Virus record (IMG/VR): IMGVR_UViG_3300009165_000019
Span: 1-32,128 of that record
DNA: 32,128 nucleotides
Strand: one strand, 5' to 3'
Origin: a virus
The notes below the pieces were generated by a model that searched no databases, was not told the origin of the DNA, and saw only the letters and a program-made list of their open reading frames with translations. Positions 8,976 to 26,825 of the stretch are shown here, piece after piece (positions within the stretch are counted from its first letter, which is position 1; each line of letters starts with the position of its first letter). The translations under genes were made by a program, and so were the position numbers.

Positions 8976-10988
8976 CTAAGTCGCTATCAATCCATGCGTT
9001 CTTAATCGTGCCAGAAGCGCATTAATTGCTGTCCTGGCTTCTGCATCTACCGTTGCCCCACCTGACGCATCTGCCACTGCTGCCTGTTGGGAGTCAATAA
9101 TTTTAGTTCCATCAATATAAATACATGATGTTGCTGGAATTAATAGAAGACCCCCATATTGATCTAAGGTCATTATTTGATTTCCATCAATATAGAATCT
9201 AAAATAGCCAAGACCGGAGATTAAAGTATAATCAAATTCTAATTCAGGACCAAGTACGCTATTCTTATGTGCAGTACAATGGCCAATGCTATTGGCATAT
9301 ACCCCGCCGTTAAATTGGGCGATAACCGTACCACCTGAATCGTACACCTGCATTCCGTCAGTAGAATCTATTTCCACTCGCTGCCCGGTTTCCGCTGTTT
9401 TGACAGTTGAGCCGATGATAGTGGTTCCATTAAGAGCAGTTACATCCAAATGATCGGTTATGATTGCATGTTCAGATATTGAAGTAGTGACAACTTTATT
9501 TTCCGCTATATTCCCATCATCGTCGAATCCATCCGTTATTACTTCAAGTTCCTGCTTATCGGATACCTTCCATAGGCTAGTGAATACTCCGTATTTATTC
9601 ATACCAACCAGTATAAGCGACTCTGATATTGCCGGGAAAGTATCTGAACTCTGAAATTCTTGAGAACTGCTTGTGGTCCAATATATCCATTTATAACTGG
9701 AATGACTTCCAGAAACATCGTAACTCCTGCCGTTATAAATGAGTTTAATGTCTGACCATTGAACTTCAGTTGCTGTAGGTGCATTGCTGGCAAATCCGCC
9801 TAATGTTATTTCAAATATATATCCATGATTATAGACTCTGGATTCTCTTGATTTCTTCGTGAAATACTCCACCCATCGCGGGTTCATATTCCCGATTATC
9901 ATATCATTCTGAGTCAAATACATCGGTATGGATATAGGGGCTTCGATGTACTCGCGAACCTGACCAAGAAGTATCTCCGGAGATTCACTTGGACTGGCCG
10001 ATGGAGATAAACTTAGACTTGCGGAGGCGCTAGATGAAGGTGAAGTACTAGGACTTGCGGAAACACTCGCTGAATGTGAAATGCTAGGACTAGCTGAAGC
10101 CGATCTGCTAGGAGATAACGACTGCGATTCTCCCTCGCTTGGGCTAGCCGACGGAGATTCTGAAATACTTGCGCTTGGACTTAAACTCGGGCTTACCGAT
10201 ACTGATGCGGAAGGAGATATACTTACGGAAGCCGAAGGGCTAATGCTAGGACTTACTGAAACAGATCCGCTAGGGCTTATAGATACAGACGCTGATGGAC
10301 TTACAGACACACTAGCGCTAGGACTTACTGACGGTGATTCACTTGCACTACCGATAACTTCCGATGGCGATGCAGAAGGAGATTCAGATGGACTTACACT
10401 AACACTTGCCGAAGGACTTATAGAAGGCGATACTGATACCGAAGCGCTTGGGCTAAGGGACGGTGACTCCGATACACTCGCACTTGGCGATATGCTTACT
10501 GATGCAGAAGGACTTATACTAGGGCTGATTGATACGCTTGCACTTGGAGATTCCGATGGAGATTCACTTACCGATGCCGAAGGTGAAACGGATACGCTCG
10601 CGCTTGGTGATAAGGAAGGTGATATTGATACCGAAGCAGAAGGACTTAAACTCGGAGATATGCTTACACTGGCGCTAGGTGATATGCTCGGTGATGCACT
10701 CACAGATGCGGACGGTGATTCGCTTACACTTGCCGAAGGGGAAATAGATACTGACGCCGAAGGGCTTTCGGAAGGCGATTCGCTTATAGATGCTGATGGC
10801 GATATCGACGGGCTTATCGATACCGAAGCAGAGGGTGAGATACTGACTGATGCTGATGGGCTTATACTTACACTGGCTGACGGGGACAGACTTGGGGATA
10901 ATGAACTAGATCCACTTGTAGATTCCCAAGTGTCTGCCGCCCATGCATCTGCATCCCAAGATGTCTGTACCCAACAATTGCCGATCAT
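8976..10988 (-). CDS. Tail-fibre-like protein with a long Ser-repeat (mucin-like) domain
   Basis: A 670-aa protein. Residues 1-26 are Trp/Asp-rich ([11 protein letters not shown]). Residues about 27-337 are one continuous tract of the tetrapeptide S-[PVI]-S-[AILEG], so about half of 310 residues are serine. Residues about 340-670 form the folded part: a beta-rich segment, an S-E-H-A-I-I-T-D...L-D-V-T-A-L-N-G linker, and a C-terminal end with [17 protein letters not shown]-x-H-G-L, an ending common in phage tail proteins. The gene abuts the upstream stop (TAA-ATG). Position between the tail genes and ejection genes suggests a fibre or tail appendage. The repeat is probably an extended, possibly glycosylated stalk; the sugar is inference. 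Confidence 0.75.
9980..10910 (-). repeat. 12-bp-period coding repeat (Ser-rich tract 1)
   Basis: About 310 codons of S-[PVI]-S-x repeats. The protein register is almost perfect, but Ser codons mix AGY and TCN types and Pro codons vary, so the DNA copies are diverged. The longest of three such tracts in the window. Short breaks occur (for example around E-V-I-G-S-A and E-G-E-S-Q). Confidence 0.9.
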
Positions 10989-12746: not shown

Positions 12747-14474
12747 TTATCTCACTTCCAAATATGCATCTGTCCAACAATGTCTTATCGCAGCAGTCGA
12801 ATATACCTCGAACACGTAATCCCTGCCGGTCCCTAAACGGTTCCATTCCACGCGGATATTGTTGACATCATCGTCCGTCTCTCCCACAGACGAACCGATT
12901 GCAGTTCCATAAGTTTTCCCGCCATTATTCGAATAGCGCATATACATCTGAGGATCGGTCCCGCTTGTTCCCAATCCCTTTTCCATGTCCAAGCCGAACT
13001 TATAGTAGGACAGAGCCTTATCTTCCGAATGAAGATGAGGTGCACGGCGGAATCGCCGAATATCGCTGCCGGCATCCGTATAAACCGCCATTGACGATGT
13101 ATATACTTTCCCGCTATTTCTCGCTCCAATGTAATGAACGCCATTCTTAGCCAGATGCGATTTTGCCAGATGAAGCGAATACGACGATCCACTCCAATAC
13201 GCTCGTTCATGCCATCGTTGAGTTGATGAATCAATGCATAATGTAGTATCCGCTCCCGGTATGGATAAGTGATATATCTCGTGGCCTTTTTCTTCTGTTA
13301 CAATGGCATAAGCGCTGCTAAGATTATCCTTATTATCAGTAATAACTGTATCGACATAGTGAGTGCTTAATTTTGTCGGCGCATAGTTTCGTGCCAAGCA
13401 AACTCTCCCGACTCCATTATTCATAGACGCAAGCCATATAATCGCATTATCCCATATATGAAGAGTAGCATTAGACCACAATCCGTATTGTATTTGAATT
13501 CCGTTTATACGTGATAATCCTAAATCAACAGTACTATCGAGCATCCAGACGTTTGTTCTTGTCTTACCGAAGAACCATAACTGACCGTGGCTTTCCATTA
13601 CTCCGACAAGTGGTTCAGGTTGCGAATCCGGGTAATCATAATCAAGCGCACTCCATGAAGTGATATCCCCTACGGCTGATCTTCGAAATACATATTCATC
13701 GGTAATGACAATGAAATATCCTCCAATATAGGCGCAATCAAGACAAGTGATGCCATCAAGTTCCGATATCTCTGATAATGATCCTGAAACCAACTTGAAC
13801 GCCTTACCATTGTTAATTATCAATGTATCGAGCGTTGTATCCCCTGTTGCTATTCGTACAGGAGAATCGATTGACGGCTCTGCGGCAACGCTTGGGCTGA
13901 CGCTTGGTGACATAGACGCCGATACGCTTGCACTCAGGCTAGGCGAGAGACTAGGACTTAATGATGGTGATATTGATACCGAAGAACTCGGACTGATGCT
14001 CGGCGATGTGCTGGGAGATAACGACGAGGAATCTCCTTCACTTGGACTTGTTGAAGGAGATTCCGACACTGATGCAGAAGGAGAAATAGAAGGTGAAACT
14101 GAAACAGACGATGAAGGGGAAATAGAAACCGATCTTGATTGAGACAACGACGGAGACAAGGATTCCGAAGCTACTGATTCCATTGTTCCTAAATCAGTTA
14201 CAGCCCCGTTAGCTACACAAACCTTATAGGCATTGTTATCGACAATACAGTAATAATATTCTGAATTGCCAATCAGATCCCCATTGAATATTGTTCTTAC
14301 ACTGTCTCCGGTTGCAATTTCTTTGAATAAAGTCAATCCAGGAGTTCCTACCAAGACAGTCTGATTTTTACCTGTAGCTCCGACTATTTCCGGCATCATA
14401 TTAACAGTGCGCGAAAGATCGGATTCAATGGAAGTCAGTTCATTTGATCCTTCAATAAACCCTGGATATCTCAT
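12747..14474 (-). CDS. P22 gp10-like packaged-DNA stabilisation protein with inserted Ser-repeat
   Basis: A 575-aa protein. The first 95 residues (M-R-Y-P-G-F-I-E-G-S, N-M-M-P-E, G-T-P-G-L-T-L-F) and the part after residue 205 (N-N-G-K-A-F-K-L, C-A-Y-I-G-G-Y-F-I-V, W-F-F-G-K-T-R-T-N-V-W, N-N-G-V-G-R-V-C-L) match the P22 gp10 type, a beta-propeller-like tail hub that plugs the portal after packaging. P22 gp10 is about 470 aa; the difference is explained by a Ser-rich insert at residues about 100-198 between what look like two propeller strands. The start is TAATG-coupled to the gp4-like gene, the same order as in P22. Insertion of a low-complexity tract into an otherwise conserved structural protein is the odd feature. 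Confidence 0.85.
   Translation of the reverse strand: MRYPGFIEGSNELTSIESDLSRTVNMMPEIVGATGKNQTVLVGTPGLTLFKEIATGDSVRTIFNGDLIGNSEYYYCIVDNNAYKVCVANGAVTDLGTMESVASESLSPSLSQSRSVSISPSSSVSVSPSISPSASVSESPSTSPSEGDSSSLSPSTSPSISPSSSVSISPSLSPSLSPSLSASVSASMSPSVSPSVAAEPSIDSPVRIATGDTTLDTLIINNGKAFKLVSGSLSEISELDGITCLDCAYIGGYFIVITDEYVFRRSAVGDITSWSALDYDYPDSQPEPLVGVMESHGQLWFFGKTRTNVWMLDSTVDLGLSRINGIQIQYGLWSNATLHIWDNAIIWLASMNNGVGRVCLARNYAPTKLSTHYVDTVITDNKDNLSSAYAIVTEEKGHEIYHLSIPGADTTLCIDSSTQRWHERAYWSGSSYSLHLAKSHLAKNGVHYIGARNSGKVYTSSMAVYTDAGSDIRRFRRAPHLHSEDKALSYYKFGLDMEKGLGTSGTDPQMYMRYSNNGGKTYGTAIGSSVGETDDDVNNIRVEWNRLGTGRDYVFEVYSTAAIRHCWTDAYLEVR
13881..14177 (-). repeat. Ser-rich tract 2, inserted in the gp10-like protein
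   Basis: About 99 codons of the S-[PVI]-S-x type with a short break (E-G-D-S-S). The same register and residue choice (V, I, E, A, L, T between serines) as in the fibre-like protein. Flanked on both sides by conserved gp10-like sequence, so it is an insertion in a loop. Confidence 0.9.
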
Positions 14475-15427
14475 TATCCGTAATCCTCTGCATTTGGAAT
14501 GCCGTAATCGGAAGTGATTTTGTACGATTTGAGATTATTTGACGCAATAGCCGCCCTGGATTGTCTGGCGAGTTTCTTTTGGGTATCAGTCAATGTTACC
14601 CCGAACGCATCAGCCAATCTTTCAGCCAGAGTCCATTTCAGAGCATCCTTATACCCGGGAGCCAGATCAACAGATGTATCTGAAGTAGCAAATTCGTTCA
14701 AATAGGACCATGTGAATAACTGCAACTTATTGGCTAAGGCTTCAGCGGTATTTGCCGGATAAGGCCACGGCCATATAGTTCCGTTCGGCACTGTAGGCTG
14801 ATAGTAAATACACACCGACTCTTCATCACTGAGAACCGGAGTTGATAACGATGCATATTCCGTCATGTCATATACAGCCAATGGCGTATATGAATCAGGA
14901 TCATCGCCAGAATGAATGAGATTCGCTCTGGCGATCTTTATCGGCCTGTCTGCGGTGAAATCCGCGCTATCCTGACCGATAGTGTAGGATTGCTTCGAAG
15001 TTGTCCACGTATACTCTGAATGAGAGTAATACAGGACAAATCGTTTCAATGCCCTCCAATGGTCGATCAGATCGTTTAATTCACCCAGACTGAAACTTAA
15101 ATCAGCCGTTGATATCGTCTGCCCTACGCCAAGGCGGTTTATTCGCCTTAATGCCGACTGGATTATCTCAAGAGCGGTAACGGCCCCGGAGCTGGATGCC
15201 ACGCTTGTACTGACAGTATAGTGAACTGATACTGTATCCCCTGTAACTGGCGCTGAAGCAAATGTTACGACATTACCGCTTACCGTTGTGGAAATAAAAG
15301 TTCCATTAATGAATCCTAATACCGAATAGGTGTCGGGCGTATTAGTAACCGTATAATCAGTATTCACTCCATTAATGGAACCGCTCAAAGTATCTGAGGA
15401 TGTTTCAGTATATGGTGTGGTCGCCAT
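14474..15427 (-). CDS. P22 gp4-like head-tail adaptor with an added N-terminal beta domain
   Basis: A 317-aa protein. Residues about 90-317 fit the gp4/tail-accessory family: A-L-E-I-I-Q-S-A-L-R-R-I-N-R-L, D-L-S-F-S-L-G-E-L-N-D-L-I-D-H-W, Y-T-I-G-Q-D, R-P-I-K-I-A-R-A, and a Trp/Pro-containing stretch (I-W-P-W-P-Y-P) before a helical end. Residues 1-85 are a separate Thr/Ser/Val-rich beta domain of a kind used in other phage appendages (G-V-N-T-D-Y-T-V; F-I-N-G-T-F-I). P22 gp4 is 166 aa without it. The family forms the ring below the portal on which the tail hub is built. The good site AAGGAG is 6 nt before ATG; the stop overlaps the gp10-like start. Confidence 0.75.
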   Translation of the reverse strand: MATTPYTETSSDTLSGSINGVNTDYTVTNTPDTYSVLGFINGTFISTTVSGNVVTFASAPVTGDTVSVHYTVSTSVASSSGAVTALEIIQSALRRINRLGVGQTISTADLSFSLGELNDLIDHWRALKRFVLYYSHSEYTWTTSKQSYTIGQDSADFTADRPIKIARANLIHSGDDPDSYTPLAVYDMTEYASLSTPVLSDEESVCIYYQPTVPNGTIWPWPYPANTAEALANKLQLFTWSYLNEFATSDTSVDLAPGYKDALKWTLAERLADAFGVTLTDTQKKLARQSRAAIASNNLKSYKITSDYGIPNAEDYG

Positions 15428-16503: not shown

Positions 16504-16789
16504 GATGCCTTCTTTCCTTTTGAATGTCCAAAAGCGATTTTATTTTGTCAAAAAATTCTTCCCGCATTCTAAATTCTCCTGATGTTTCACATTCTTCTAT
16601 CCAACCATTGACAGCAAGCATAAATAAGGCATAGCTATCTTTTAAATAATCGTCATAAAATAATGGGGCGTCACATGGAAAACCCTCTAATGCTTGGCAT
16701 ATACATTCCGCTATTTTATCCATTTCGAAGCATCCAAACATATTTGTACAGTCAGCGTTTGCTAATTGTTCATCAATTCGGTATGGCAT
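16490..16789 (-). CDS. Small acidic Cys-containing protein, function unknown
   Basis: A 99-aa acidic, helical protein with five Cys (residues about 14, 20, 29, 31 and 39, plus one near 67) that do not form a clear zinc motif. It overlaps the end of the 563-aa glycosyltransferase by 17 nt and the next gene by 14 nt, so it belongs to the same transcript. It could be part of the sugar cassette or the first of the neck genes; nothing in the sequence decides. Confidence 0.5.
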   Translation of the reverse strand: MPYRIDEQLANADCTNMFGCFEMDKIAECICQALEGFPCDAPLFYDDYLKDSYALFMLAVNGWIEECETSGEFRMREEFFDKIKSLLDIQKERRHLAIS

Positions 16790-18464
16790 TTGGCAATAAC
16801 CCCCTTAATTGATCCTTGGTCCATCCATCGAGTTCCCATACCTTCTTTTCGGTCCAGGCGTATAATTGCTGCTGATTCCTGAAATCCCTTTTACGCCATC
16901 TATTTGATGTCAAATTTTTGTCATGCCGGATATCCAGACTCGGATGCTTGGAGAAATACGCTTCTCTGGTATAGTAATCGCATCCACGCGGCGGCTTATG
17001 ACTTCCAGGTTCAAACCCGAATCTGCGAGTAAATCCTTCTTTCTCCACCTTCTCTACTCGGGCAATGTAGTGTTTCAAAAGCGCATCACGATACCCGCAT
17101 AACATACTCGTGCTCATATGATTATAGAATAGCGCATGCCCGGTGAATGCGTTTATATGCCATACATTCTCATCATAATAGAATATTTCCTTATTAGGCG
17201 GAATAAAGTCAAAGTGAGAGGGGTGATAGCCCACATCATGTTCAACCATAAACAGAACGTCTGCCGTGCTTTCTTCAATTCCTTTCAATATCTGTTGAAA
17301 CATCGTAAGGTATCCACGTTCCTTATTCATGACGATATTGCGCCCGAAGTCCATCGGAACAAGCGTTACGCTTACAATATCGTGACCATTGCAGCATACC
17401 TTGATTTGCCTCTGGCATGATTCCAGTATTTGTTTATCCGGCCTGCCGTCTGAATAATAGACAAGCCCGATGGACGGTTTATCCACAATAACAGCAGGCG
17501 CTTGATTGAATAGTTTTCCTGCTTTCATGACTCTTTCGACGTTTTCTTTTATGATTTTCACCTTTTTCGTTTCTACATGCCAGCCGGGAACTGGAGAGAA
17601 TTTCTCTACCAGCCAAGACAAAGGATATATCTGTTTTGGATGCCTGTTATTGAAGAACGTATCCCGCGCTCTTTGTTTGGCGTTTTGAATCTGTGAATCC
17701 GACTGTTTATATGGGAACCCGAAATCCCCGCCTTGGGTTCTGAATAGATGGGCATACCACGTATTATGGTTACATATACACTTGCCTCCTGAAAGCCATG
17801 TTGTTATAGCTACAGTCAATCCCTGACTTCCCCACGAACCAAACGTTTCATCGTCAAGATTCAGGTCGAAGTACTTCTCTTTGGTACACATATAGCATGA
17901 ACCCTGAAGGCTCATTGTTTCTGATAGCGGCCCCTTCCCATTGGGCCGCTTTTTCATTTCGCCCATGTACTGAAAATGCGGTTCGCTGTCGAAGCAGTAC
18001 GCCGTGCTTTGCGGATTTCCCTTGCCAATCCATACTACGTCCATTGTAGTCGGTTCACCGCATACGGTACACACCCCGGACGGCCCTTGGTAGCGCCGAT
18101 GTCCGTTCGGGCAGACCCAATCAAACGCATGCAAGTTCCGCATGACCGGAACCATAGTCCAATCGTCTTGCATGACTTCAAGCATTTTGCGGTCAAATCC
18201 CTGATCGAAGGCGCAATGAGCATCTACTTTCATCACATATTTTGACGATGCCATTCGCGCCGCTTCGTTGCATGATGCACGTTGCCCGTGCGGTTCAGCA
18301 TGGCGGATAACCTTAATTCTGTCCGATTCCGGCAGATCGGTTTCCCATCCATCAAGCACAACAACGATTTCCGTTTCCGCTTCGGAATGGAGAAGGATAT
18401 CTTCCACTGTTCTCCTAAGGAACATTTCATTAAGTGATGGAATTAACACGCTTAATTCAGGCAT
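16773..18464 (-). CDS. Two-domain glycosyltransferase (GalNAc-T-like/GT2 N-half fused to second GT-like domain)
   Basis: A 563-aa soluble enzyme. Residues 1-315 are a GT-A domain: L-S-V-L-I-P-S-L-N-E start, V-V-L-D-G-W-E (36-41), D81-A-H83-C as the metal/UDP-sugar motif, then G-S-W-G-S-Q-G...W-L-S-G-G (209-227) and N-T-W-Y-A-H (234-239). The DxH and the WG...GG blocks recall polypeptide GalNAc-transferases (GT27) more than plain GT2. A Cys pair-of-pairs insert (C118...C132-x2-C135) looks like a zinc ribbon. Residues about 330-500 are a second domain (P-M-D-F-G-R-N-I, E-H-D-V-G-Y-H-P-S-H-F) homologous to the stand-alone protein at 19757-20461. The N-half is homologous to the protein at 21769-22725. 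Sugar donor and acceptor unknown; virion protein is the favoured acceptor. Confidence 0.8.
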   Translation of the reverse strand: MPELSVLIPSLNEMFLRRTVEDILLHSEAETEIVVVLDGWETDLPESDRIKVIRHAEPHGQRASCNEAARMASSKYVMKVDAHCAFDQGFDRKMLEVMQDDWTMVPVMRNLHAFDWVCPNGHRRYQGPSGVCTVCGEPTTMDVVWIGKGNPQSTAYCFDSEPHFQYMGEMKKRPNGKGPLSETMSLQGSCYMCTKEKYFDLNLDDETFGSWGSQGLTVAITTWLSGGKCICNHNTWYAHLFRTQGGDFGFPYKQSDSQIQNAKQRARDTFFNNRHPKQIYPLSWLVEKFSPVPGWHVETKKVKIIKENVERVMKAGKLFNQAPAVIVDKPSIGLVYYSDGRPDKQILESCQRQIKVCCNGHDIVSVTLVPMDFGRNIVMNKERGYLTMFQQILKGIEESTADVLFMVEHDVGYHPSHFDFIPPNKEIFYYDENVWHINAFTGHALFYNHMSTSMLCGYRDALLKHYIARVEKVEKEGFTRRFGFEPGSHKPPRGCDYYTREAYFSKHPSLDIRHDKNLTSNRWRKRDFRNQQQLYAWTEKKVWELDGWTKDQLRGLLPNAIPN

Positions 18465-18995
18465 CTATTTTATCCAATACCAGCTTGGAGCTGCTTCCTT
18501 ATCATAAAACCCTGTGACGCTTACCGGATCATTGCTTATTCGTTTATAGAACTCATCAACAGCAGCTTTAACGCTTCTGGTCTGATGATGTTCTGTTCCG
18601 TAATCATGCCCGGAAACTATCCCGCCCGGACGTACCTTTGGTTCCCAATGAGTTATATCCGAAAGAACGCTTTTATAGTCATGCGATGCATCAATGTACA
18701 CCAAATCAAGTGATTCATCGGGAATCAACTTAGACGCTTCAACACTATCCATTTCCATGAATCGCACTTTATATGGAGCAAGAATGCATCGAGCATTCTC
18801 CAATGCTTTCTTAATGTTATGAATATTCTTGTGATTCCTGGTCGGCTGCCACACATCCACGCAGATATGATCGACATTAGGTATGTTACGGCAAATCACT
18901 TCAGAGAATAGCCCACTGAACACGCCTATTTCCGCTGTGAATCGCGCTCCCCGGCTTGCAGCAAATTTAATCAGTTCTTCTCTATTTTTCAGCAT
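18465..18995 (-). CDS. Class I SAM methyltransferase (copy B)
   Basis: About 176 aa from ATG 18995; the frame is open to 19046 but the longer start overlaps the previous gene by 65 nt and the alignment to its paralogue begins after it. The fold is seen in A-E-I-G-V-F-S-G-L (motif I, SAM binding), a C-V-D-V-W acidic turn (motif II), S-L-D-L-V-Y-I-D-A-S-H-D-Y (motif IV) and P-G-G-I-V-S-G-H-D-Y. This is the pattern of Methyltransf_24-type enzymes, which often methylate sugars. Paralogue of the 201-aa protein at 21174-21779; both end in S-W-[YF]-W-[IV]-K. Likely O-methylates a sugar added by the neighbouring transferases; substrate not shown. Confidence 0.8.
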   Translation of the reverse strand: MLKNREELIKFAASRGARFTAEIGVFSGLFSEVICRNIPNVDHICVDVWQPTRNHKNIHNIKKALENARCILAPYKVRFMEMDSVEASKLIPDESLDLVYIDASHDYKSVLSDITHWEPKVRPGGIVSGHDYGTEHHQTRSVKAAVDEFYKRISNDPVSVTGFYDKEAAPSWYWIK

Positions 18996-19770
18996 AAAAT
19001 AAGTCCGGATATCGTTCCTTGTTATCCAACAGCCATTGAGGACCATTCGGCATTTCTATCGTAAACTTGTATTCGGGATAACTGTCCCATCCGGCTGGCG
19101 CTCTTTCATATGGATCTTTCAGGTTTTTTATGTTCTCTTCAAGATTCTCTTTGAAGTAATCGGTATCTAATTCCGTATGCGCGAATGATTCTATCTTATA
19201 CCTTATCTGATCCGCATTTCCTATAGTAGAAAAATGCCAGCCCCCATTAATGAGTACAGTAGGATTGCTGTTTCTATGATTTCGGACATGCGTTAAAGTC
19301 TTTATGTTCTTATACTTATAGGCTTGTGTTCCTTTCCACAATCTTGTATTGGTGAAGCAATTCAGATAGTAATAATATAACTTCTGCTTGAATGCGCCTT
19401 CGTTGCCGTTCCAATCTTTCAAATTAGGTATCTCGTCAAGATCCGATAACAAGATAATGTCTTCAGAATCGCACCCAGTTAAGCCCCGCATAAGACATTC
19501 ACGCTGATAATGTTCCAACCTCCAGGCATTGCCGCTATACTTCCCTTTCTCAATCACATAGTTTTTATCATCTTCAACAATAATGTGAGTAATTGGAAAG
19601 TCCTTAAATCGTTCCTTATTCTCTTCGAAATACAACGGCTTAGGGTTCCCGCTATGAGTTATAGGCATTTCTGTAAGAACAAATATATCCACATAGGGCG
19701 CAAGGCTATTGAGCCTGATTTCGAGTAGGTCCAGTTCATTGAAGAATGGGAAACAATCAATTATCTTCAT
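18982..19770 (-). CDS. Glycosyltransferase family 17-like protein
   Basis: A 262-aa protein matching the GT17 (beta-1,4-mannosyl-glycoprotein GlcNAc-transferase-like) pattern: D-C-F-P-F-F-N-E-L-D-L-L-E-I-R-L at the start, F-V-L-T-E (30-34), T-H-S-G-N-P-K-P-L-Y-F-E-E-N-K (38-52), Q-R-E-C-L, and L-L-S-D110-L-D112-E-I-P as the metal-binding DxD. Near the C-terminus W-H-F-S (with G-G before it) is also typical. Bacterial and phage GT17 proteins are common in glycan clusters. No signal or TM segment, so cytoplasmic. Overlaps the upstream gene by 14 nt. It probably extends a glycan with GlcNAc or a related sugar; the exact linkage cannot be read. Confidence 0.8.
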   Translation of the reverse strand: MKIIDCFPFFNELDLLEIRLNSLAPYVDIFVLTEMPITHSGNPKPLYFEENKERFKDFPITHIIVEDDKNYVIEKGKYSGNAWRLEHYQRECLMRGLTGCDSEDIILLSDLDEIPNLKDWNGNEGAFKQKLYYYYLNCFTNTRLWKGTQAYKYKNIKTLTHVRNHRNSNPTVLINGGWHFSTIGNADQIRYKIESFAHTELDTDYFKENLEENIKNLKDPYERAPAGWDSYPEYKFTIEMPNGPQWLLDNKERYPDLFYAEK

Positions 19771-20461
19771 TTCTTCTCTTATACAATTTCAATACATCTT
19801 CCGCACTGCCCCATGGATCGAGTTGATTAACTCTCTGTTCTCCATGTCCCTTATTTTTCCCTCGTGACAGATATCCGAACGCATCTTCATGAGAGAATGC
19901 TATTGTAGGTTCCACGGCCCACGATTTCTCGATTATCCGTTCAGTCATTCCCAATCTGTTCTCTCGCCGGCCGGGATCCTTCCAATTGCTTAAATTCAGT
20001 TTCGATTCATCCGGCCATAATCGGAATCGTTCTTCCAGATCGTCTACCAGATAGTCACGATTGCTTATTAACTGATGCACAACTGTATTATTCAGTATCG
20101 AGAATATCGGCGGTTTTGTCCAAGTATATAGACTCCACTTATTAACGTCATAATTGAACACTTCATCGGAACTTGGTCTTAACCGAAAGTGAGAAGGCGG
20201 ATACAAGATATCATCTTCCGCTAGGGCTACATATCGAGTCTTTGCCGCTTTCGCTCCAATCAATATCTGGTGATATATGTTCAAATGGGACCGCCCGATA
20301 TCTCCGACGCAGATGTTCGTTCCCAAATCCATTGGTTGCTGGCTTACGGTAATTAAAGGATATCCGTCAATGGCTCGAAGCAACGCTTTCATCGTGTTTG
20401 CAAAGAAATGCGCTGAAATATAATTAGCCGTATAATAGATTACCGTTAAATCTCCGTTCAC
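19757..20461 (-). CDS. GT-A-like glycosyltransferase domain protein (stand-alone C-domain)
   Basis: About 234 aa using GTG at 20461, which overlaps the previous stop (GTGA) and has GGGGAG four bases upstream; a GTG at 20473 is the other option. Key blocks are P-M-D-L-G-T-N-I, Y-H-Q-I-L-I-G, A-E-D-D-I-L-Y-P-P-S-H-F and V-F-N-Y-D-V-N-K-W. The same blocks occur in the second half of the 563-aa enzyme, so the two are paralogues. The E-D-D is a DxD-like acidic motif at the end of a strand, as in GT-A enzymes. No known family is certain. An enzyme that adds a further sugar is the simplest reading. Confidence 0.7.
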   Translation of the reverse strand: MNGDLTVIYYTANYISAHFFANTMKALLRAIDGYPLITVSQQPMDLGTNICVGDIGRSHLNIYHQILIGAKAAKTRYVALAEDDILYPPSHFRLRPSSDEVFNYDVNKWSLYTWTKPPIFSILNNTVVHQLISNRDYLVDDLEERFRLWPDESKLNLSNWKDPGRRENRLGMTERIIEKSWAVEPTIAFSHEDAFGYLSRGKNKGHGEQRVNQLDPWGSAEDVLKLYKRRNEDN

Positions 20462-21174
20462 TTTTCTCCCCACTTAGTATGGTTCAATGTATGAAACAAG
20501 CCATGTGGATTATCATTCCCGTCAATATGATATCGGCCTGAAGGGAAGAAATAGACAAACGATCCTAATACCTGATCTTTGTATTTCCCGTCCCTACATG
20601 CATGGGCGTATCGCTTATTGAATTCCCTATCTTCCCCCTGTAGATGGCTGCCTGAATTGCATCGGTTGAGGTTATACCCGCCAAGTTCATCAAATACAGT
20701 TCTACGCATGAGCCAGGTATTGCCATGCACCCCATCGGAAAGATTGTCGTCCCGGATGGCTTTAGGGTCCAATCCCCAAGATATGACGCTATCTCTGTCA
20801 TTGATGAGTTTCCCTTCTTCGTCAAGATAAGCGAATCGGCGACGAAAGATCATTTTGTCATCCTGAAACAATAGCGATGCGTCGATGGCTTCTTTGGATA
20901 CGATATGGTCTATATCAGTGCAAAGAATGTATTCCCCGACAGATTCCTTTATGCCTTTCATTCGAGCAAGCCCCTGAGTCCAGCTGCGCGTATCGTTGGT
21001 ATACATTAATTTTGTTGTACGGAGTGGCTCAGGGGCTTGGATCGGCGGATTGCTGCCATCGTCCACGATGATAGTTTCAACCGTGTCCGGCAGGTCCAAA
21101 CTTTTAAGATATAGCAAATAGCGTCTGACGATTTCGTGGCTATCAAGTACCGCTATTACAATTGACAGTTTCAT
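20458..21174 (-). CDS. Glycosyltransferase family 2
   Basis: About 238 aa from ATG 21174, which overlaps the methyltransferase stop (TGATG); a TTG 12 nt upstream is less likely. GT2 features: L-S-I-V-I-A-V-L-D-S, T-I-I-V-D-D-G-S-N (34-42), I-L-C-T-D87-I-D89-H (DxD), and G-E-D-R-E-F near residue 180, the place of the catalytic base. F-D-E-L-G-G-Y-N precedes it as in GT2/GT27 C-terminal halves. Inverting transfer from a nucleotide sugar is expected. Cytoplasmic. It lies in the middle of the sugar cassette. Confidence 0.85.
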   Translation of the reverse strand: MKLSIVIAVLDSHEIVRRYLLYLKSLDLPDTVETIIVDDGSNPPIQAPEPLRTTKLMYTNDTRSWTQGLARMKGIKESVGEYILCTDIDHIVSKEAIDASLLFQDDKMIFRRRFAYLDEEGKLINDRDSVISWGLDPKAIRDDNLSDGVHGNTWLMRRTVFDELGGYNLNRCNSGSHLQGEDREFNKRYAHACRDGKYKDQVLGSFVYFFPSGRYHIDGNDNPHGLFHTLNHTKWGEK

Positions 21175-21779
21175 CACTTCACCCAAAACCAGCTTCTAGG
21201 CGGATCTTTAGGAGTCACATAATACAGCGCGATATTGTGAGCATGTACATATGCGTCAACAGCCTGAATTACGCCGCAACTATAATAATGCTCGTAGTCA
21301 TGCCCGGAAACTATCCCGCCTGTTTTAACCTTCGGAACCCATGCGAGAATATCAGCCATGACATTATCAAAATCATGAAGAGCGTCAATATAGACGAAAT
21401 CAAGGCTTCCGTCTTCGACGTTCTTAGCCGCTTCGATGCTGCATTCTCTTATAAATTCAACATTCTTATACGGACTTAATCTATGTCTTGCTCTCGCTAA
21501 TTGCTGATTCTGCCATTCCTGATTATGATGAGTAAACGGTTTCCACGGATCAATGCATTTCAGATTCAACTCAGGATTAGCCATGCATAATTGTTGCGAG
21601 TACGTCCCGCGCTGAACGCCTATTTCCGCACCTTTCATATATCCTAATTCGGCGAATAACTGGGCCAGGGTATCTCGCGTTCCCTCAAATCCCATGATAG
21701 GGGGAGTGTCGCCATGATGAACGTGGAACGTGCTCCATATCTTCCGGTTTACATGGTCGAGACGAATGCTATAGCCCAT
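21174..21779 (-). CDS. Class I SAM methyltransferase (copy A)
   Basis: A 201-aa protein with motif I A-E-I-G-V-Q-R-G (51-58), C-I-D-P-W (75-79), S-L-D-F-V-Y-I-D-A-L-H-D-F (about 129-141) and G-G-I-V-S-G-H-D-Y (about 158-166), ending S-W-F-W-V-K. Methyltransf_24-like; paralogue of the enzyme at 18465-18995. Its start overlaps the end of the preceding 318-aa transferase by 11 nt and its stop overlaps the next GT2 start, so the three are translated together. Sugar O-methylation is the favoured role given its neighbours; a protein or lipid substrate is not excluded. Confidence 0.8.
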   Translation of the reverse strand: MGYSIRLDHVNRKIWSTFHVHHGDTPPIMGFEGTRDTLAQLFAELGYMKGAEIGVQRGTYSQQLCMANPELNLKCIDPWKPFTHHNQEWQNQQLARARHRLSPYKNVEFIRECSIEAAKNVEDGSLDFVYIDALHDFDNVMADILAWVPKVKTGGIVSGHDYEHYYSCGVIQAVDAYVHAHNIALYYVTPKDPPRSWFWVK

Positions 21780-22725
21780 TTATTTTGTACCCATCATTTC
21801 CACTTGAATTGAATACGGCGAAATTACCGTCTTCCTTAACAAAAGTCTTCCATGTTGCCGGCCAACTGGGGATGGGATAGAACTTTGAATTAGCGAACCA
21901 GCTCATTGTGCGCGTGGCTTTCGGCCATTTATCGTTCATCCATACCCAAGTATTGAACCGTTCCGATTCGTGTTTCTGCCGCTTGGTTCTTCCATATCCG
22001 CCGGATTCGTCCTTATGCCAATGAGCGTACCAGGTGTTTTTGTTCACAATCACCCTTCCACCACGCATCCAGGTCTTGAAGGTTAACTCCTGCGGTTCCT
22101 GATAGAAGAACGTGTGCACTTCGTCTTTCCCGTCAATATCGTAGAAATGCTTACGACTCATTAGCCATAAGGATCCCTGAATAGTATGGATATCGTCGAT
22201 TTTGACGTGCTTCCGGTTGTTTTCCATCCAGTAGTATTCTCTTTTACCCATATTTTGCCCGATTCCATCGGTACCGATCCATTTTTTGCCGTGAAAGCCT
22301 GCACCGTAGAGATCATCAGTATTATAAGGAAAGGTAAGGTAAAGGTATTCCAGTGGTTCATCTTTCGCACCCCATTTGTTTGTATCAAGTCTATATCTTG
22401 TTGGAGTTACCAGCCAGTTATCTTCGATGTTATCCAACAGCTTTGCATCGAACTCATTGTCAAAACAACAATGAGCGTCCACCTTCATCAGATAGTCGCC
22501 TTGAGCCAGTGCCGCTAATTCATTAATTGCAGAATCCATTCCCCGCGCTGTCTGACAATGCACTTGAAGAAGGTTTTTGCGATCTTCCAATGGCGGATCG
22601 GGTTTCCATCCGTCAAGCATAACGAGAACTTCAATATCTCCGGCAGCTTTGATGAACAGATCGTCAACGGTCTGCCGGAGATAAGGTTCGTTTCTTGCGG
22701 GAATCAATACGCTTAATTTAGGCAT
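21769..22725 (-). CDS. Glycosyltransferase with GalNAc-T-like motifs (candidate initiating enzyme)
   Basis: A 318-aa protein homologous to the N-terminal half of the 563-aa enzyme. Motifs: L-S-V-L-I-P-A-R-N-E, V-M-L-D-G-W, D83-A-H85-C, I-Q-G-S-L-W-L-M (183-189), Y-Q-E210-P-Q-E213...W-M-R-G-G, N-T-W-Y-A-H235, and P-I-P-S-W at the C-terminal side. In GT27 enzymes a DxH motif binds Mn/UDP-sugar and a later W-G-G-E-N block binds the acceptor side; this layout is alike, but it may still be classed as GT2. It is the first gene after the Ser-repeat protein, starting 4 nt beyond its stop, which makes it the best candidate to put the first sugar on serine. No ricin-type lectin domain is present. Confidence 0.8.
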   Translation of the reverse strand: MPKLSVLIPARNEPYLRQTVDDLFIKAAGDIEVLVMLDGWKPDPPLEDRKNLLQVHCQTARGMDSAINELAALAQGDYLMKVDAHCCFDNEFDAKLLDNIEDNWLVTPTRYRLDTNKWGAKDEPLEYLYLTFPYNTDDLYGAGFHGKKWIGTDGIGQNMGKREYYWMENNRKHVKIDDIHTIQGSLWLMSRKHFYDIDGKDEVHTFFYQEPQELTFKTWMRGGRVIVNKNTWYAHWHKDESGGYGRTKRQKHESERFNTWVWMNDKWPKATRTMSWFANSKFYPIPSWPATWKTFVKEDGNFAVFNSSGNDGYKINGL

Positions 22726-22728
22726 TAA

Positions 22729-23757
22729 TTACATTGCCTTCCAAATTGGCATTGTGGCGTTCCCATCATTCCGGTAAATATTGGAAATTGATCCGGTGCA
22801 GTAATAGATAGATCCTGCTCCGGCAAATCCCGCTCCGTCGCCGTCGGTACCGCTGACGGGGATATCTTCGGACACGATTGACCATACGTCTCCGAATAAT
22901 CTTGTTCGATTGGGATTATGATTTGACAGATGCCAGGTTACGGTTGCGCTGGTAGCGCGATTGAAAGTAACCGCATTCCACCGATAGAGTTTATTCTTGG
23001 GAGTTTCATTTTTCACCCATTCAAGCACTACCGTTCCGGTCAATCCGGTTGAATGGCTGATATCCGCTCCAAGTTTGGATTTCTCTGTTCTCCATCGCTG
23101 TCCGCCATCCTGAGTGTATTCGAGACGTATTGAAGCAACTCCGGTCCCGGTCGGCACTTCGATCATGTACTGAAGTTCTTCTCCAGGCCGAATCAGGATT
23201 GTATGGCTATATCCCGGACTGACGAAATACCCGGTAAGATTCGTCTGATCGGGCGCAGCGCTTGGCGAAGCCGACGGGCTACCGCTCGGACTCAACGAAC
23301 CGCTTGGCGAAGCCGAAGGACTGCTTGACGGACTGGCCGAAGGGGATTTTGACGGCGATTCCGATACTGACGGACTCGGAGACGTTGATGGAGAATCCGA
23401 CACAGAACTGCTTGCTGACGCCGATGGGCTTGCTGAAGCGCTTCTGCTTGGCGATCCCGAAGGGGATTTTGATGGACTTTCAGAAGGACTTTTACTTGCC
23501 GACGGGCTTGCGCTTGGTGAATTACTTGGCGACACCGACACGGATGTTGATGGCGATATCGATACGGACGATGAAGGACTTTTCGAAGGTGAAATGCTTA
23601 CTGAACTGCTAGGCGATGTCGATACAGAAGGTGAAGGACTTGTCGAAGGCGAAGCAGATGCCGATTTACTTGGTGAATTCGACACTGATGCCGAAGGGCT
23701 TGTTGAAGGGGAATTACTTATTGAACTACTGGGTGATAAACTAGGTGACTCAGCCAT
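22729..23757 (-). CDS. Ser-repeat virion protein (putative head/surface fibre) at the head of the sugar cassette
   Basis: A 342-aa protein. Residues 2 to about 172 are the Ser-rich tract, starting right after the initiator Met-Ala-Glu. Between serines this tract uses Pro, Val, Ala and also Lys, Asn, Thr, Gly and Arg, a slightly different mix from the other two tracts. Residues about 175-342 are a folded beta-rich domain (G-Y-F-V-S-P-G-Y-S, S-I-R-L-E-Y-T-Q-D-G-G-Q-R-W, V-T-W-H-L-S-N-H-N-P) resembling an adhesion or decoration domain; no family recognised. Ribosome site AGGAG, 9 nt from ATG. It lies after the cement gene and before the glycosyltransferases, so it may be a capsid fibre and the main substrate of the cassette. 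Confidence 0.7.
   Translation of the reverse strand: MAESPSLSPSSSISNSPSTSPSASVSNSPSKSASASPSTSPSPSVSTSPSSSVSISPSKSPSSSVSISPSTSVSVSPSNSPSASPSASKSPSESPSKSPSGSPSRSASASPSASASSSVSDSPSTSPSPSVSESPSKSPSASPSSSPSASPSGSLSPSGSPSASPSAAPDQTNLTGYFVSPGYSHTILIRPGEELQYMIEVPTGTGVASIRLEYTQDGGQRWRTEKSKLGADISHSTGLTGTVVLEWVKNETPKNKLYRWNAVTFNRATSATVTWHLSNHNPNRTRLFGDVWSIVSEDIPVSGTDGDGAGFAGAGSIYYCTGSISNIYRNDGNATMPIWKAM
23248..23754 (-). repeat. Ser-rich tract 3
   Basis: About 169 codons of S-x-S-x repeats at the N-terminus of the head-fibre-like protein. Compared with tracts 1 and 2 it holds more Lys, Asn, Thr, Gly and Arg and fewer Ile/Leu, so it was not simply copied from them recently. Codons are again synonymously mixed. 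Confidence 0.9.
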
Positions 23758-23899: not shown

Positions 23900-24529
23900 A
23901 TGAAAACATTCAATGAAAACACACGATTTGGACGACTTACAATCATCAAGAGAACTGGTCTTGATGAAACTAGCAAATACTACAAACCAATGGTTCTTTG
24001 CTTGTGCGATTGCGGCAAAGAAATTATTAAGAATCTGTATGACATAACCTCTGGTCATACTAAATCTTGTGGTTGTCTTAGAGACGAAGGAAGAAAACCT
24101 ATTCATGGTATGACAAAATCGCCCGAATGGAATACTTGGTGCCACATTAAACAAAGATGTTATGATAAAAATGCTAAAGATTTTAAAAGATACGGTGGGC
24201 GTGGAATAAAAATGTGCGACAAATGGTTGAATTCCTTTGAAGCATTTTTTTCTGATATGGGGCATAGGCCATTTCCAAATTATACAATCGAAAGAATTAA
24301 TAATAATGGAAACTATGAGCCAAAAAACTGCGCATGGATTCATCATGATAAACAAGCCCTTAACCGAAGAAACAATACTATTATCTACTATAATGGACAA
24401 TATTTAACCATTGGCGAATGGAACACCAAAATGGGATTTCCACATGGACTTATCTCACAAAGGTTAAATAAGCTAGGATGGAGCGTAAATAAATCCTTAT
24501 CTACGCCCCACCGTAAGCGATTGATCTAA
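23900..24529 (+). CDS. Homing-type HNH/AP2-like endonuclease, antisense to the operon
   Basis: A 209-aa protein. Residues 9-60 form a zinc-ribbon-like module (R-F-G-R-L-T-I, C36-x-C38-G, then S-C57-G-C59-L). Residues 70-160 carry the family core H-G-M...W, R-Y-G-G-R-G-I (97-103), F-F-S-D-M-G, E-R-I-N-N-N-G-N-Y-E-P-K-N-C (131-144) and N-R-R-N-N (155-159). The C-terminal 45 residues (Y-N-G-Q-Y-L-T-I-G-E-W... G-W-S-V-N-K-S-L) are a NUMOD-like DNA-binding helix-turn-helix. Such free-standing endonucleases spread by cutting alleles that lack them. It is the only sizeable plus-strand gene, is AT-richer than its neighbours, and faces the cement gene tail to tail with a 9-nt gap. No intron is implied. 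Confidence 0.85.
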   Translation: MKTFNENTRFGRLTIIKRTGLDETSKYYKPMVLCLCDCGKEIIKNLYDITSGHTKSCGCLRDEGRKPIHGMTKSPEWNTWCHIKQRCYDKNAKDFKRYGGRGIKMCDKWLNSFEAFFSDMGHRPFPNYTIERINNNGNYEPKNCAWIHHDKQALNRRNNTIIYYNGQYLTIGEWNTKMGFPHGLISQRLNKLGWSVNKSLSTPHRKRLI

Positions 24530-24538: not shown

Positions 24539-24979
24539 TCACGCATCAAATACAACAGCATCACTATAGTACGCCTGATCGGACACATTCGCTAATGGAA
24601 CAAGGTTCACATCGACTGTGATTGTGTCACCTGTTCCAAGTTCAACTTTCCCGCCAACATATCTGCGATATGTCGCGCCGGACGGAAGAGGAACAACCCA
24701 CTGTGTACCCAGGGTAAGACTTGCATTCGGGATGCGTCTTGTCGCCAGGTACAAAGGGGAAGTGAGATTTGCATTAGCGGAAGTTATCGCCATGAAATCC
24801 GTTGTATCCGTTGAACCTGTTGCGGCTGCCATCACCGTAAACACCAGACACATAGGCACGCCGGTTCCTATTTCACGTTTCGGGGTAACGTTCCCGGTAT
24901 CGTAGGAATAGTCCGTATATGCATCTGCGTCGGTCACAGCCAGGGCATCGCTAAGTTTGGTGTATTCGTCTAAAATCAT
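24539..24979 (-). CDS. Bbp16-like capsid cement protein
   Basis: A 146-aa protein starting M-I-L-D-E-Y-T-K-L-S-D-A-L-A-V-T, then a G-x-G-V-P-M-C-L-V-F-T-V strand, T-S-P-L-Y-L-A-T-R-R-I, V-V-P-L-P and R-R-Y-V-G-G-K-V. This matches the pattern of the Bbp16 family (cement protein of Bordetella phage BPP-1), beta-rich proteins that lock capsomers on the outside of the capsid. It follows the Bbp17-like major capsid gene by 10 nt, the same order as in BPP-1-like phages. Last gene before the plus-strand endonuclease interrupts the operon. Confidence 0.8.
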   Translation of the reverse strand: MILDEYTKLSDALAVTDADAYTDYSYDTGNVTPKREIGTGVPMCLVFTVMAAATGSTDTTDFMAITSANANLTSPLYLATRRIPNASLTLGTQWVVPLPSGATYRRYVGGKVELGTGDTITVDVNLVPLANVSDQAYYSDAVVFDA

Positions 24980-24989: not shown

Positions 24990-25982
24990 TTAGGATATGG
25001 CCGTGGTTTCGGTCACAAGTTGGTCGCTTATGCGGATCGGGATGCCACGGAAAGACATGATGCGTTTGCCGTCCACAACGCTGTAATCGAGCTGACCGCC
25101 TGTTTTCACATCTTCATATCTCTGCAAATCCAGGTATTCAGCAGTTGTCCGGTTCATATAGAAAGCCGCTCTTCCGGCTTTCAGATTCGGGACGCGGTAA
25201 ATGGCCTTAGCCATTAACCGGCGAAGATTCGCTGCGGAAGTGATTGCGATCAGGTCGGCAACATTGATATTGCAGATGCGGACCACATAGCGCCAATCCT
25301 TGACCACCAGGCCGGATTTCCATACCCAATGATCGTGCAGCGCTCTCATTTTCTGGCCGCTGGAATTCGTCACAGTTTCGGTTCCGAGGTCTTCGTGAAC
25401 GATTCCGGCTTTGCTTCCTTTGGGGAAAGTGAGGAATACCGTATTATCTCCCCAAACGACAAGCCAGATTGAGTAGTTCGAACTCGCGCCGGCGGCGCTG
25501 ATGATGTTATCCGCGTTTCCTGCGGACAAGGAACTATAACGCGGAGCGAAGCCGGTGAACTCTTCCGGCGCAGTGCCGGAATTCCCGTACCACAACGTTC
25601 CGGCCATTTCCTGATTCATTGCTTCGAGAAATGCCGTGGCTTCAGTTAAGCGGAATTTCTTGGAATTGCCGCTTAAATCCGCAAGTACCGGGTCAACAAC
25701 GCTCCAGGCGTCGAGCATTCCGGTTTGTTCGGTGATTTGCGCTGTAGTCGATTTGCTGGCGCTCACATATTGGTTAATCATGCGCCAGTAAACGGTAGGA
25801 AGCCCGGTGCGGACAGTTGTCAAATATCCGGTTGGCAGGTTTCCTTCCTGAACGACTGCATCCTCTAGGATTTCGTTCGTCTGTCCGAGCAATTCTACGA
25901 TTCCCGGTATAGAACCGTTCGGGTCCATCCGTTTTGCCCAATCCAATAGGGTCAAATTGGTGGCAGTTAAAGCTGATGTCAT
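24990..25982 (-). CDS. Major capsid protein, epsilon15 gp7 / Bbp17 type
   Basis: A 330-aa protein with the HK97-fold family pattern of epsilon15/BPP-1: L-T-L-L-D-W-A-K-R-M-D-P-N-G, I-V-E-L-L-G-Q-T-N-E-I-L-E-D, R-T-G-L-P-T-V-Y-W-R, S-K-S-T-T-A-Q, F-L-E-A-M-N-Q-E and T-L-W-Y-G-N. Length is near that of epsilon15 gp7. Ribosome site AGGAG, 7 nt from ATG, as expected for an abundant protein. Upstream is the scaffold gene and downstream the cement gene. It builds the icosahedral shell. Confidence 0.9.
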   Translation of the reverse strand: MTSALTATNLTLLDWAKRMDPNGSIPGIVELLGQTNEILEDAVVQEGNLPTGYLTTVRTGLPTVYWRMINQYVSASKSTTAQITEQTGMLDAWSVVDPVLADLSGNSKKFRLTEATAFLEAMNQEMAGTLWYGNSGTAPEEFTGFAPRYSSLSAGNADNIISAAGASSNYSIWLVVWGDNTVFLTFPKGSKAGIVHEDLGTETVTNSSGQKMRALHDHWVWKSGLVVKDWRYVVRICNINVADLIAITSAANLRRLMAKAIYRVPNLKAGRAAFYMNRTTAEYLDLQRYEDVKTGGQLDYSVVDGKRIMSFRGIPIRISDQLVTETTAIS

Positions 25983-25991: not shown

Positions 25992-26825
25992 CTACTTGTA
26001 GAGCAAATCCTCCAACGATTTCGGTTGAATTGGATTTGCGCCCTTATCGGTAACGTAAGTGGGCGTTATCTCCGATTTAGGCTTTGGATTTATACCTTTT
26101 ATCCGAGCCAGGATGCGCGATTCGATTTTAATCAATTCACGCACAATCTTGAACGGCGGCAATTCGCGTAATCGCTCAACATCATCGGGATTTTCGTGCA
26201 GTTCCCATAACAGGTCCGGGCCTATTTCCGAATCAACCAGGAACCCGTCCATAGTAGGGTTAGGTCTTACGGTTGCATAGGCTTCGTTTCTGTCGTATTC
26301 GGGATTTCGAGCAATGGTTTTAGCTTCCCGCTTGACTATTTCCGCCTGAAGTTTTTTAGTCTCAGCGTCGTATTTGGCCTTACGGTCGGCTTCAACGGTT
26401 TCTCGTCGCGTATTTTCCCTGACGTATTCACCATATCTCTGTTTGAAGTCCTGAAGCGCCTTATTGTAATCGTCGATGGTTTCATACGACTCAATTTTAG
26501 GCTCTGAAGGTTCAATCAGAGGCTTGATTTCGGGCACTGGCGGAATGGAATGAATCTTTTCCTCCAATGTCCGCACCTTGGCGGTGAGTTGCTTAATGCG
26601 CTTTTCCGCCTTCGATTCCTTTTTAGGCTCGGGCAGTTTCTCATCTTCCGGGGATGTAGCGTTTTCATCCTTGCCTTCGGATTTACCTTCAGGTTCGGAT
26701 TCGGTGTCATTGGATGCTGACGTTTCATCGGCTTTATCGTCATTCGCGGTTTTTTCTTCTACCGGCTCCTGCGATTCCGGTTTTTCTGCGGGTGACGATT
26801 CCGCATTATCTTTTTCGTCGGGCAT
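25992..26825 (-). CDS. Scaffolding protein
   Basis: About 277 aa from ATG 26825, chosen because AGGAG lies about 10 nt upstream; the open frame begins at 26849 where no site is seen. The first 85 residues are Glu/Lys/Ser/Pro-rich and disordered. Residues about 75-95 and 125-185 are charged coiled-coil-like helices, and the C-terminal part is basic and Pro-containing (I-N-P-K-P-K-S-E-I-T). This composition and the position between portal and major capsid are those of phage scaffold proteins, which guide shell assembly and then leave. No protease domain is seen. Confidence 0.75.
   Translation of the reverse strand: MPDEKDNAESSPAEKPESQEPVEEKTANDDKADETSASNDTESEPEGKSEGKDENATSPEDEKLPEPKKESKAEKRIKQLTAKVRTLEEKIHSIPPVPEIKPLIEPSEPKIESYETIDDYNKALQDFKQRYGEYVRENTRRETVEADRKAKYDAETKKLQAEIVKREAKTIARNPEYDRNEAYATVRPNPTMDGFLVDSEIGPDLLWELHENPDDVERLRELPPFKIVRELIKIESRILARIKGINPKPKSEITPTYVTDKGANPIQPKSLEDLLYK

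Follow-up and report, generated by a model that had tools for sequence, protein, structure and literature searches.

Ser-x repeat proteins and an adjoining putative glycosylation gene cassette in an uncultured podovirus: a probable phage-made mucin-like coat

In Gram-positive bacteria, serine-rich repeat glycoproteins have been characterized for which GspB, with GtfAB, Nss and Gly, is an example (PMC7948813). In these systems, long Ser-rich repeats are O-glycosylated in the cytoplasm by glycosyltransferases of the same locus, the glycan is extended sequentially, and the product is an exported adhesin. Among phages, virion glycosylation was described for Che8 and related mycobacteriophages (Freeman et al. 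2023; cited by PMC11256854 and PMC12619734). In these, phage-encoded glycosyltransferases decorate virion proteins.

The window examined here, that is, the whole stretch of DNA that was analysed (32,128 nucleotides), comprises positions 1-32,128 of IMG/VR record IMGVR_UViG_3300009165_000019 and belongs to an uncultured podovirus. It contains glycosyltransferase genes among the phage structural genes, together with long Ser-rich repeats at the same locus. We consider it very likely that through this cassette the phage encodes a pathway for O-glycosylation in the cytoplasm, with Ser-x repeats in its own virion proteins as acceptors. Since dozens of other viruses likewise combine repeats and enzymes, the product is probably a phage-made mucin-like coat. 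As in the mycobacteriophages, a decoration of virion proteins by phage enzymes is thus proposed; however, their glycans are located on capsid and tail-tube C-termini (PMC12619734), while here the acceptors are proposed to be dedicated Ser-x repeats and the initiators DxH enzymes similar to polypeptide GalNAc-transferases. With the Gram-positive systems, the phage would share sequential extension and, as proposed, cytoplasmic O-glycosylation, whereas its product is a virion part. No GtfA/GtfB-type initiator is present in the cassette (its families are PF00535, PF04724 and PF13578, plus one without assignment), and in a reading of the open reading frames neither an accessory Sec system was seen in the window nor a signal peptide on the repeat protein, the N-terminus of which is not hydrophobic.

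Table 1. Features of the window, with the basis of each assignment.
Feature	Coordinates	Strand	Basis
Ser-repeat protein 3 of 670 aa; aa 16-341 (DNA 9966-10943) form an N-terminal Sx repeat	8976..10988	-	repeat statistics, PHROGs
Ser-repeat protein 2, Hc3/P22 gp10-like head-closure protein, repeat in loop (DNA 13863-14189)	12747..14474	-	phrog_578 and alignment
Ad3-type head-tail adaptor, cassette lies upstream	14474..15427	-	phrog_637, phrog_12985
Two-domain glycosyltransferase, 563 aa: DxH GT aa 1-300, EHD domain aa ~334-560	16773..18464	-	domain comparison
Methyltransf_24 methyltransferase 2, 193 aa	18465..19046	-	Pfam
GT17 family glycosyltransferase, 262 aa	18982..19770	-	PF04724, E=8e-25
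EHD family enzyme of 238 aa with predicted GT-A-like fold and ExD motif E86/D88	19757..20473	-	predicted structure
GT2 glycosyltransferase, 242 aa, proposed chain extender	20458..21186	-	PF00535
Methyltransf_24 methyltransferase 1, 201 aa	21174..21779	-	Pfam; relatives have DxH GT fusion
DxH glycosyltransferase A of 318 aa, resembling ppGalNAc-transferases; proposed initiator	21769..22725	-	PF00535
Ser-repeat protein 1 of 342 aa; aa 1-171 (DNA 23245-23757) form an Sx repeat, C-terminal domain unassigned	22729..23757	-	ORF and repeat statistics
Bbp16-like head gene, border upstream of insertion	24539..24979	-	PF21190
Major head protein	24990..25982	-	phrog_212

The gene order was identified as terminase, portal, scaffold, major head protein and Bbp16, followed by the cassette and then by the Ad3 adaptor and the Hc3 head-closure protein (Table 1). 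A check of the open reading frames placed all Ser-repeat and cassette genes on the minus strand, at the coordinates of the first-pass annotation. That annotation had located the cassette between head and neck genes in the late structural operon; the flanking genes agree with this, but a plus-strand ORF (23900-24529) intervenes between the Bbp16 gene and the gene for Ser-repeat protein 1. The further description of a Ser-repeat gene followed without a break by five glycosyltransferases and two methyltransferases was confirmed, since the cassette genes at 16773-22725 overlap or abut (intergenic gaps of +3 to -65 nt) and Pfam and fold assignments identify two DxH-type GT2 enzymes, one further GT2, one GT17, one GT-A-like EHD enzyme and two Methyltransf_24 proteins (Pfam tally: Glycos_transf_2, three; Glyco_transf_17, one; Methyltransf_24, two). 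These seven soluble enzymes lie behind the gene for Ser-repeat protein 1.

Ser-x dipeptide repeats of 109-326 aa, with Ser at every second position, were identified in three proteins. Ser accounts for 51% of the repeat in Ser-repeat protein 1 and for 48% in both protein 2 (aa 96-204) and protein 3, with a recurrence at lag 2 of 93%, 86% and 97%, respectively. There are 81, 44 and 152 Ser pairs at lag 2, whereas shuffling the residues of each repeat 2000 times gave at most 54, 33 and 90. Both Ser content and lag-2 counts bear out the earlier statement that proteins 2 and 3 carry the repeat type of protein 1. A recent microsatellite or DNA-level expansion was rejected as the origin of the repeats, because the Ser codons are fully mixed: all six are in use, their entropy is near the maximum (2.39-2.51 versus 2.58 bits), and AGY codons make up 27-42%. 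Tandem repeat analysis of the window by TRF returned two short arrays only.

Ser-repeat protein 2 matches the profile phrog_578 with E=3.7e-58 (best stretch residues 242-572) and can be aligned with its P22 gp10/Hc3 relatives over its length. It differs from them in the Ser repeat of about 100 aa, which in an alignment with three insert-free relatives is a clean loop insertion. The repeat is therefore located on the virion, and at least one of the three Ser-repeat proteins is certain to be a virion protein. The C-terminal part of Ser-repeat protein 3 matches PHROGs of unknown function; its gene position suggests that the protein sits on the tail.

The DxH enzymes match animal and Toxoplasma polypeptide GalNAc-transferases among PDB sequences (profile search, E=1e-16). 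For DxH glycosyltransferase A, an AlphaFold2 model with a pLDDT of 86.8 was obtained, and the top 50 PDB folds are polypeptide GalNAc-transferases in 50 of 50 cases, with TM-scores of 0.6-0.7 and 15-20% identity; the structural match alone leaves the acceptor unfixed. The D83xH85 motif and the late H235 are invariant in 45 sequences. GT60 is, like GT27, a family of polypeptide HexNAc-transferases. The replacement of DxD by DxH is described as a variation confined to these two families (PMC7185993). The phage enzyme has in common with GT27 the predicted GT-A fold, the DxH motif, the metal-binding late His and the top structural matches. However, in addition to the identity of 15-20% in the fold alignment, it differs by the absence of a C-terminal ricin-type lectin domain (PF00535 is the sole domain found in its 318 aa) and, in a hydropathy scan, of a membrane anchor. 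Judged from sequence and model, it probably works like a GT27 enzyme but is not classed as a member of this family. With this kinship, a protein is a more plausible acceptor than LPS or capsule.

The two-domain glycosyltransferase, whose DxH domain carries a Cys-rich insertion, contains two GT domains, so that six GT domains are distributed across five genes. In relatives, DxH, methyltransferase and EHD domains are found fused with each other, and homologs of the further GT2 enzyme adjoin Ser repeats in other phages. The EHD enzyme has no family match in Pfam or PHROGs, and its profile identified no sequence relative among solved structures; its structure model is confident and GT-A-like. As noted in the first-pass annotation, membrane segments are absent from all cassette enzymes, with a maximal 19-residue hydropathy of at most 1.17 versus 2.25 for the holin.

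In the proposed pathway, one operon would yield both repeats and enzymes late in infection. The two DxH enzymes would place the first sugar, probably a HexNAc, on the repeat serines, using a host nucleotide sugar as donor, and the EHD, GT2 and GT17 enzymes would lengthen the glycan, which the two Methyltransf_24 enzymes may cap or modify by O-methylation. At the neck (in the Hc3 loop) and on Ser-repeat protein 1, probably also on the tail via Ser-repeat protein 3, the glycosylated tracts would form mucin-like brushes, extended and hydrated, that might serve as a shield or an adhesin.

To compare other viruses, loci were collected by the DxH profile alone; of the 414 stretches obtained, the analysis covered the best 80. 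A Ser-repeat ORF was identified in 65 of these 80, the profile having been built mostly from contigs that bear repeats. It is located on the same strand as the DxH gene in 65/65 cases, with a median gap of 65 nt, and after clustering at 80% identity it is present in 58 of 69 clusters (all within the best 80 of 414). The 15 repeat-less loci were rejected as counter-examples, since all of them end less than 4 kb past the last DxH gene; among the loci of this set with 4 kb or more of sequence downstream, 44/44 have the repeat. A search with just the window enzyme gave a single locus, L003, in which a Ser-repeat gene follows two genes on. A Ser repeat was present at 0/82 control loci and a DxH enzyme in 0/29 portal-related records. 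In the repeat-first search, EHD was found in 17/36 records versus 0/50 random ones, and PF00535 in 19/36 versus 3/50. About 8 of 25 phages with long Ser repeats are devoid of DxH and EHD enzymes, which implies that repeats can exist unglycosylated or rely on other enzymes. The co-occurrence suggested as a check in the first-pass annotation therefore holds in one direction: the enzymes imply the repeat, but the converse fails. The cassette enzymes thus seem dependent on the repeats, whereas the repeats do not strictly require the cassette, so that the refuting condition named in that annotation applies only in part. Its central claim, that the cassette acts on the repeat serines, is supported by the 44/44 loci, by the kinship to polypeptide GalNAc-transferases and by the repeat in a certain virion protein.

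No match to the DxH and EHD enzymes was identified in cultured and deposited phages, and none by tblastn with the window enzyme among 50,697 phage records. In cultured podoviruses whose head genes are related, the same operon is present but both cassette and repeats are missing. No publication on Ser-repeat phages with such a cassette was found; subscription journals were largely outside the search, so that this absence proves little.

The enzymes might instead modify a surface polymer of the host, like LPS, capsule or teichoic acid, with the Ser-repeat genes as mere neighbours. Serotype-converting phages carry glycosyltransferases, and polysaccharide loci also hold GT2, GT17 and methyltransferase families. 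However, the cassette contains no membrane segment and, in the Pfam scan, neither flippase nor ligase; the repeat gene accompanies the enzymes at every long-enough locus of the best 80 of 414, in very different phages; and the nearest structures are protein-modifying enzymes. In addition, the genes are part of the late structural operon, which is too late to alter adsorption of the same particle. This makes a host polymer a highly improbable target.

It is likewise highly improbable that the Ser repeats serve as flexible spacers without modification and that the glycosyltransferases target other virion proteins, for example, the capsid. The mycobacteriophage glycans on capsid and tail-tube C-termini (PMC12619734) speak for this, as do the phages with repeats but without the cassette. 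Yet the cassette tracks the repeat and not the particle type, being found in podoviruses and in one phage with a tape-measure gene, and bacterial chromosomes carry cassette and repeats together, with flanking regions in which, as far as they were read, no capsid gene was recognised. A hypermodification of phage DNA, for which the PHROG label 'DNA methyltransferase' of the methyltransferase family and the DNA-glycosylating viral glycosyltransferases cited in PMC12619734 could be quoted, is scarcely credible: both methyltransferases belong to Methyltransf_24 in Pfam, no base-hydroxymethylating gene was recognised within the window, and the cassette is located in the late operon and also on bacterial chromosomes.

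Genome matches of the DxH enzymes are nearly all from Patescibacteria, and for this reason a Patescibacterial host was considered. This was rejected as less likely, since the major head protein is 54-58% identical to those of Caulobacter, Limnohabitans and E. coli (phiV10) phages and the Hc3 protein is akin to that of Rhodoferax phage P26218. On balance, we lean towards a prokaryotic mucin system in which Ser-x repeats are modified in the cytoplasm by DxH enzymes homologous to the transferases that initiate animal mucin glycans, and which was exchanged repeatedly between tailed phages, as a virion brush, and Patescibacteria, where the cassette is chromosomal, often near tatC, and its product may be exported and displayed on the cell surface.

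The GT-A-like EHD family is new to Pfam and PHROGs. If the proposed glycosylation of the repeats is correct, hundreds of uncultured phages would use enzymes of their own to build a mucin-like glycoprotein coat, and dedicated repeat acceptors would represent a second, structurally different way to glycosylated phage particles. Kin of the animal mucin-initiating enzymes would then exist in phages and Patescibacteria, and the cassette would provide a compact enzyme set for the production of mucin-like polymers in bacteria.

The window, which is the entire virus record of 32,128 bases, is probably an incomplete genome, since related phages have 36-46 kb and it contains no recognised replication genes. 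Its minus-strand genes are listed below; those for the seven enzymes overlap or directly adjoin each other (+3 to -65 nt). Inside the late operon but on the opposite strand, between the Bbp16-like and Ser-repeat genes, a 209-aa ORF was identified (23900-24529, +) which by eye looks like an HNH/AP2-type homing endonuclease; a Pfam search with it gave zero matches. An HNH_3 homing-endonuclease-like gene (30778-31260) adjoins the terminase gene.

Minus-strand features of the window in transcription order
Feature	Position	Strand	Remark
Terminase	29053-30489	-	first
Portal	26887-29049	-	
Scaffold	25992-26849	-	
Major head protein	24990-25982	-	
Bbp16-like	24539-24979	-	
Ser-repeat protein 1	22729-23757	-	
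Seven enzymes	22725 down to 16773	-	small genes come next
Ad3-type adaptor	14474-15427	-	
Hc3/P22 gp10-like head-closure protein	12747-14474	-	with Ser repeat
Ser-repeat protein 3	8976-10988	-	
DNA-ejection protein	7347-8543	-	
Tail spike	1732-3804	-	
DUF5675 protein, 3TM holin		-	last

The Ser repeats claimed in the first-pass annotation proved to be real. They are 326, 109 and 171 residues long, with Ser recurring at lag 2 in 97, 86 and 93% of cases and lag-2 Ser pairs far above 2000 shuffles of the same residues. P, A, V and I predominate among the alternating residues, and Thr is scarce. Usage is near-even across the six Ser codons, TCN and AGY sets alike, which are mutationally far apart. 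Together with the excess over the shuffles, this points to selection on the protein and disfavours a DNA repeat of recent origin. A DNA pattern for SPSASVSxSPS (about 20 specified bases) was found in 39 stretches among viral contigs, and a control pattern with 17 specified bases in two.

From sequence comparison, one repeat certainly sits in a virion protein. The head-closure protein has a match to phrog_578 (Hc3 head closure, E=3.7e-58) and is colinear with three insert-free relatives, including the version from Rhodoferax phage P26218 (31% identity), apart from a Ser-repeat stretch of about 100 residues flanked by '...LGTMES' and 'SPVRIATG...'. By this alignment, the repeat was inserted into a loop, and the rest of the protein is that of a normal neck protein. 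The annotation had also counted Ser-repeat protein 3 among the virion proteins; its place in the late operon suggests, as for Ser-repeat protein 1, that it is a particle component.

The claimed glycosyltransferase and methyltransferase cassette was borne out by Pfam, with PF00535 in three proteins, PF04724 (GT17) in one and PF13578 (Methyltransf_24) in two. For the 19757-20473 protein, neither Pfam nor PHROG gives a family; its confident structure model (pLDDT 94.3) is GT-A-like, with SpsA and other GT-A enzymes as weak best matches. A second domain of this family, here called EHD, is fused behind the DxH domain in the 16773-18464 protein. The EHD family, which has no Pfam or PHROG model, is characterised by an ExD motif, Q69 and W221; it is present in dozens of phages and also occurs in Patescibacteria.

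For the DxH protein at 21769-22725, a single-sequence PDB search matched polypeptide GalNAc-transferases (best E=4e-4), and with a 16-sequence DxH profile the 14 best PDB sequences all belonged to this group (E down to 1e-16). They also fill all 50 best PDB matches of its structure model (pLDDT 86.8, pTM 0.89). Residues D83, H85 and H235 are the same in all 45 relatives. In a study of the GT-A superfamily, the DxH replacement was found only in GT27 and GT60, and GT27 has a late metal-binding His (PMC7185993). On sequence and model, the DxH enzymes are called GT27-like rather than GT27, because the GT27 lectin domain and membrane anchor are absent. At 17562-18464 and in many relatives, a Cys4-like (zinc-ribbon-like) insertion lies within the DxH domain.

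Searching with the window DxH enzyme alone gave one distant viral locus, L003, where an 898-aa Ser-repeat protein comes after a DxH-MT-EHD fusion, another DxH enzyme and one more GT-like ORF. A DxH profile, built mostly from sequences of repeat-bearing contigs, found 414 viral stretches; in fetched DNA of the best 80, a Ser-repeat ORF was identified in 65, EHD in 73 and a methyltransferase in 60. The nearest repeat lies at a median of 65 nt from DxH, on the same strand in 65/65. All 15 repeat-less loci end less than 4 kb past the last DxH gene, and the repeat is present in 44/44 loci with at least 4 kb behind it. After clustering at 80% identity, 58 of 69 clusters carry the repeat. Control loci contained no Ser repeat (0/52 random, 0/30 portal-related), and no DxH enzyme was found in 29 portal-related records. 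In Ser-repeat records, EHD occurred in 17/36 versus 0/50 random records (Fisher 2e-8) and PF00535 in 19/36 versus 3/50 (Fisher 2e-6), both values being optimistic owing to near-duplicates.

The co-occurrence expected from the annotation thus held from the enzyme side and failed from the repeat side, where about one in three contigs bearing long Ser repeats, some of these contigs being long themselves, are without a DxH/EHD enzyme. The association is therefore one-way. For a repeat that serves as acceptor this is the direction to be expected, since a substrate without its enzyme is easier to have than an enzyme without its substrate. Two phage contigs without DxH or EHD enzyme, L047 and L055, carry Ser-x repeats of 597-667 aa ending a large protein after baseplate-like genes; these either go unmodified or rely on different enzymes.

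In a genome collection, 41 DxH loci were identified, nearly all in Patescibacteria, with a Ser-repeat ORF in 23. Several look chromosomal, and the L251 cassette lies within a 917-kb chromosome record. Six Patescibacteria genomes have two DxH enzymes each, like the window. The system is sporadic, being present in 3/192 Patescibacteria genomes including the one on which the search was centred. TatC was found in 11/41 genome loci (L226, L231, L237, L251, L256, L259 and five more), where the cassette thus lies near it, versus 0/80 viral loci. No obvious signal peptide was seen by eye at the N-termini of the chromosomal repeat proteins. Exchange between viruses and genomes was probably repeated, because a quick tree requires 13 label changes, at least seven of them forced.

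The cultured podoviruses Caulobacter BL94, Limnohabitans DC33 and phiV10 have related head genes (head protein 54-58% identical). In these and in Rhodoferax phage P26218, the interval from the Bbp16-like position to the neck genes holds just small genes, and fetched DNA of the first three contained no Ser repeat. The DxH enzymes of the window and L003 and a related EHD enzyme gave zero matches in 50,697 phage records. This lineage has therefore probably acquired the cassette as a module. The cassette is also present in phages with unrelated particle genes; in L241, it precedes a head-tail adaptor, a minor head protein and a tape measure, and the repeat protein carries a Laminin_G_3 domain.

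Serine-rich repeat glycoprotein systems (PMC7948813) are similar in their way of working, but their GtfA/GtfB and accessory Sec are missing here. Animal mucin initiation resembles the first step, but its lectin domain is absent from the window enzymes. Phage-encoded virion glycosylation, the broad kind to which the system would belong, is already known from mycobacteriophages; in contrast to these, the dedicated repeat acceptors and the different enzyme set appear to be new.

In the mechanism that best fits these results, the repeat serines would be O-glycosylated sequentially in the cytoplasm, either ahead of particle assembly or in its course, and the host would supply the nucleotide sugars. 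The DxH enzymes would start the glycan on Ser, the EHD, GT2 and GT17 enzymes would extend it, and the methyltransferases would modify it. Relatives in which DxH, methyltransferase and EHD domains are fused argue for joint work on one product. The resulting coat may shield the particle against proteases or capture, serve in adhesion to surfaces or hosts, or act in the spacing of neck and tail parts.
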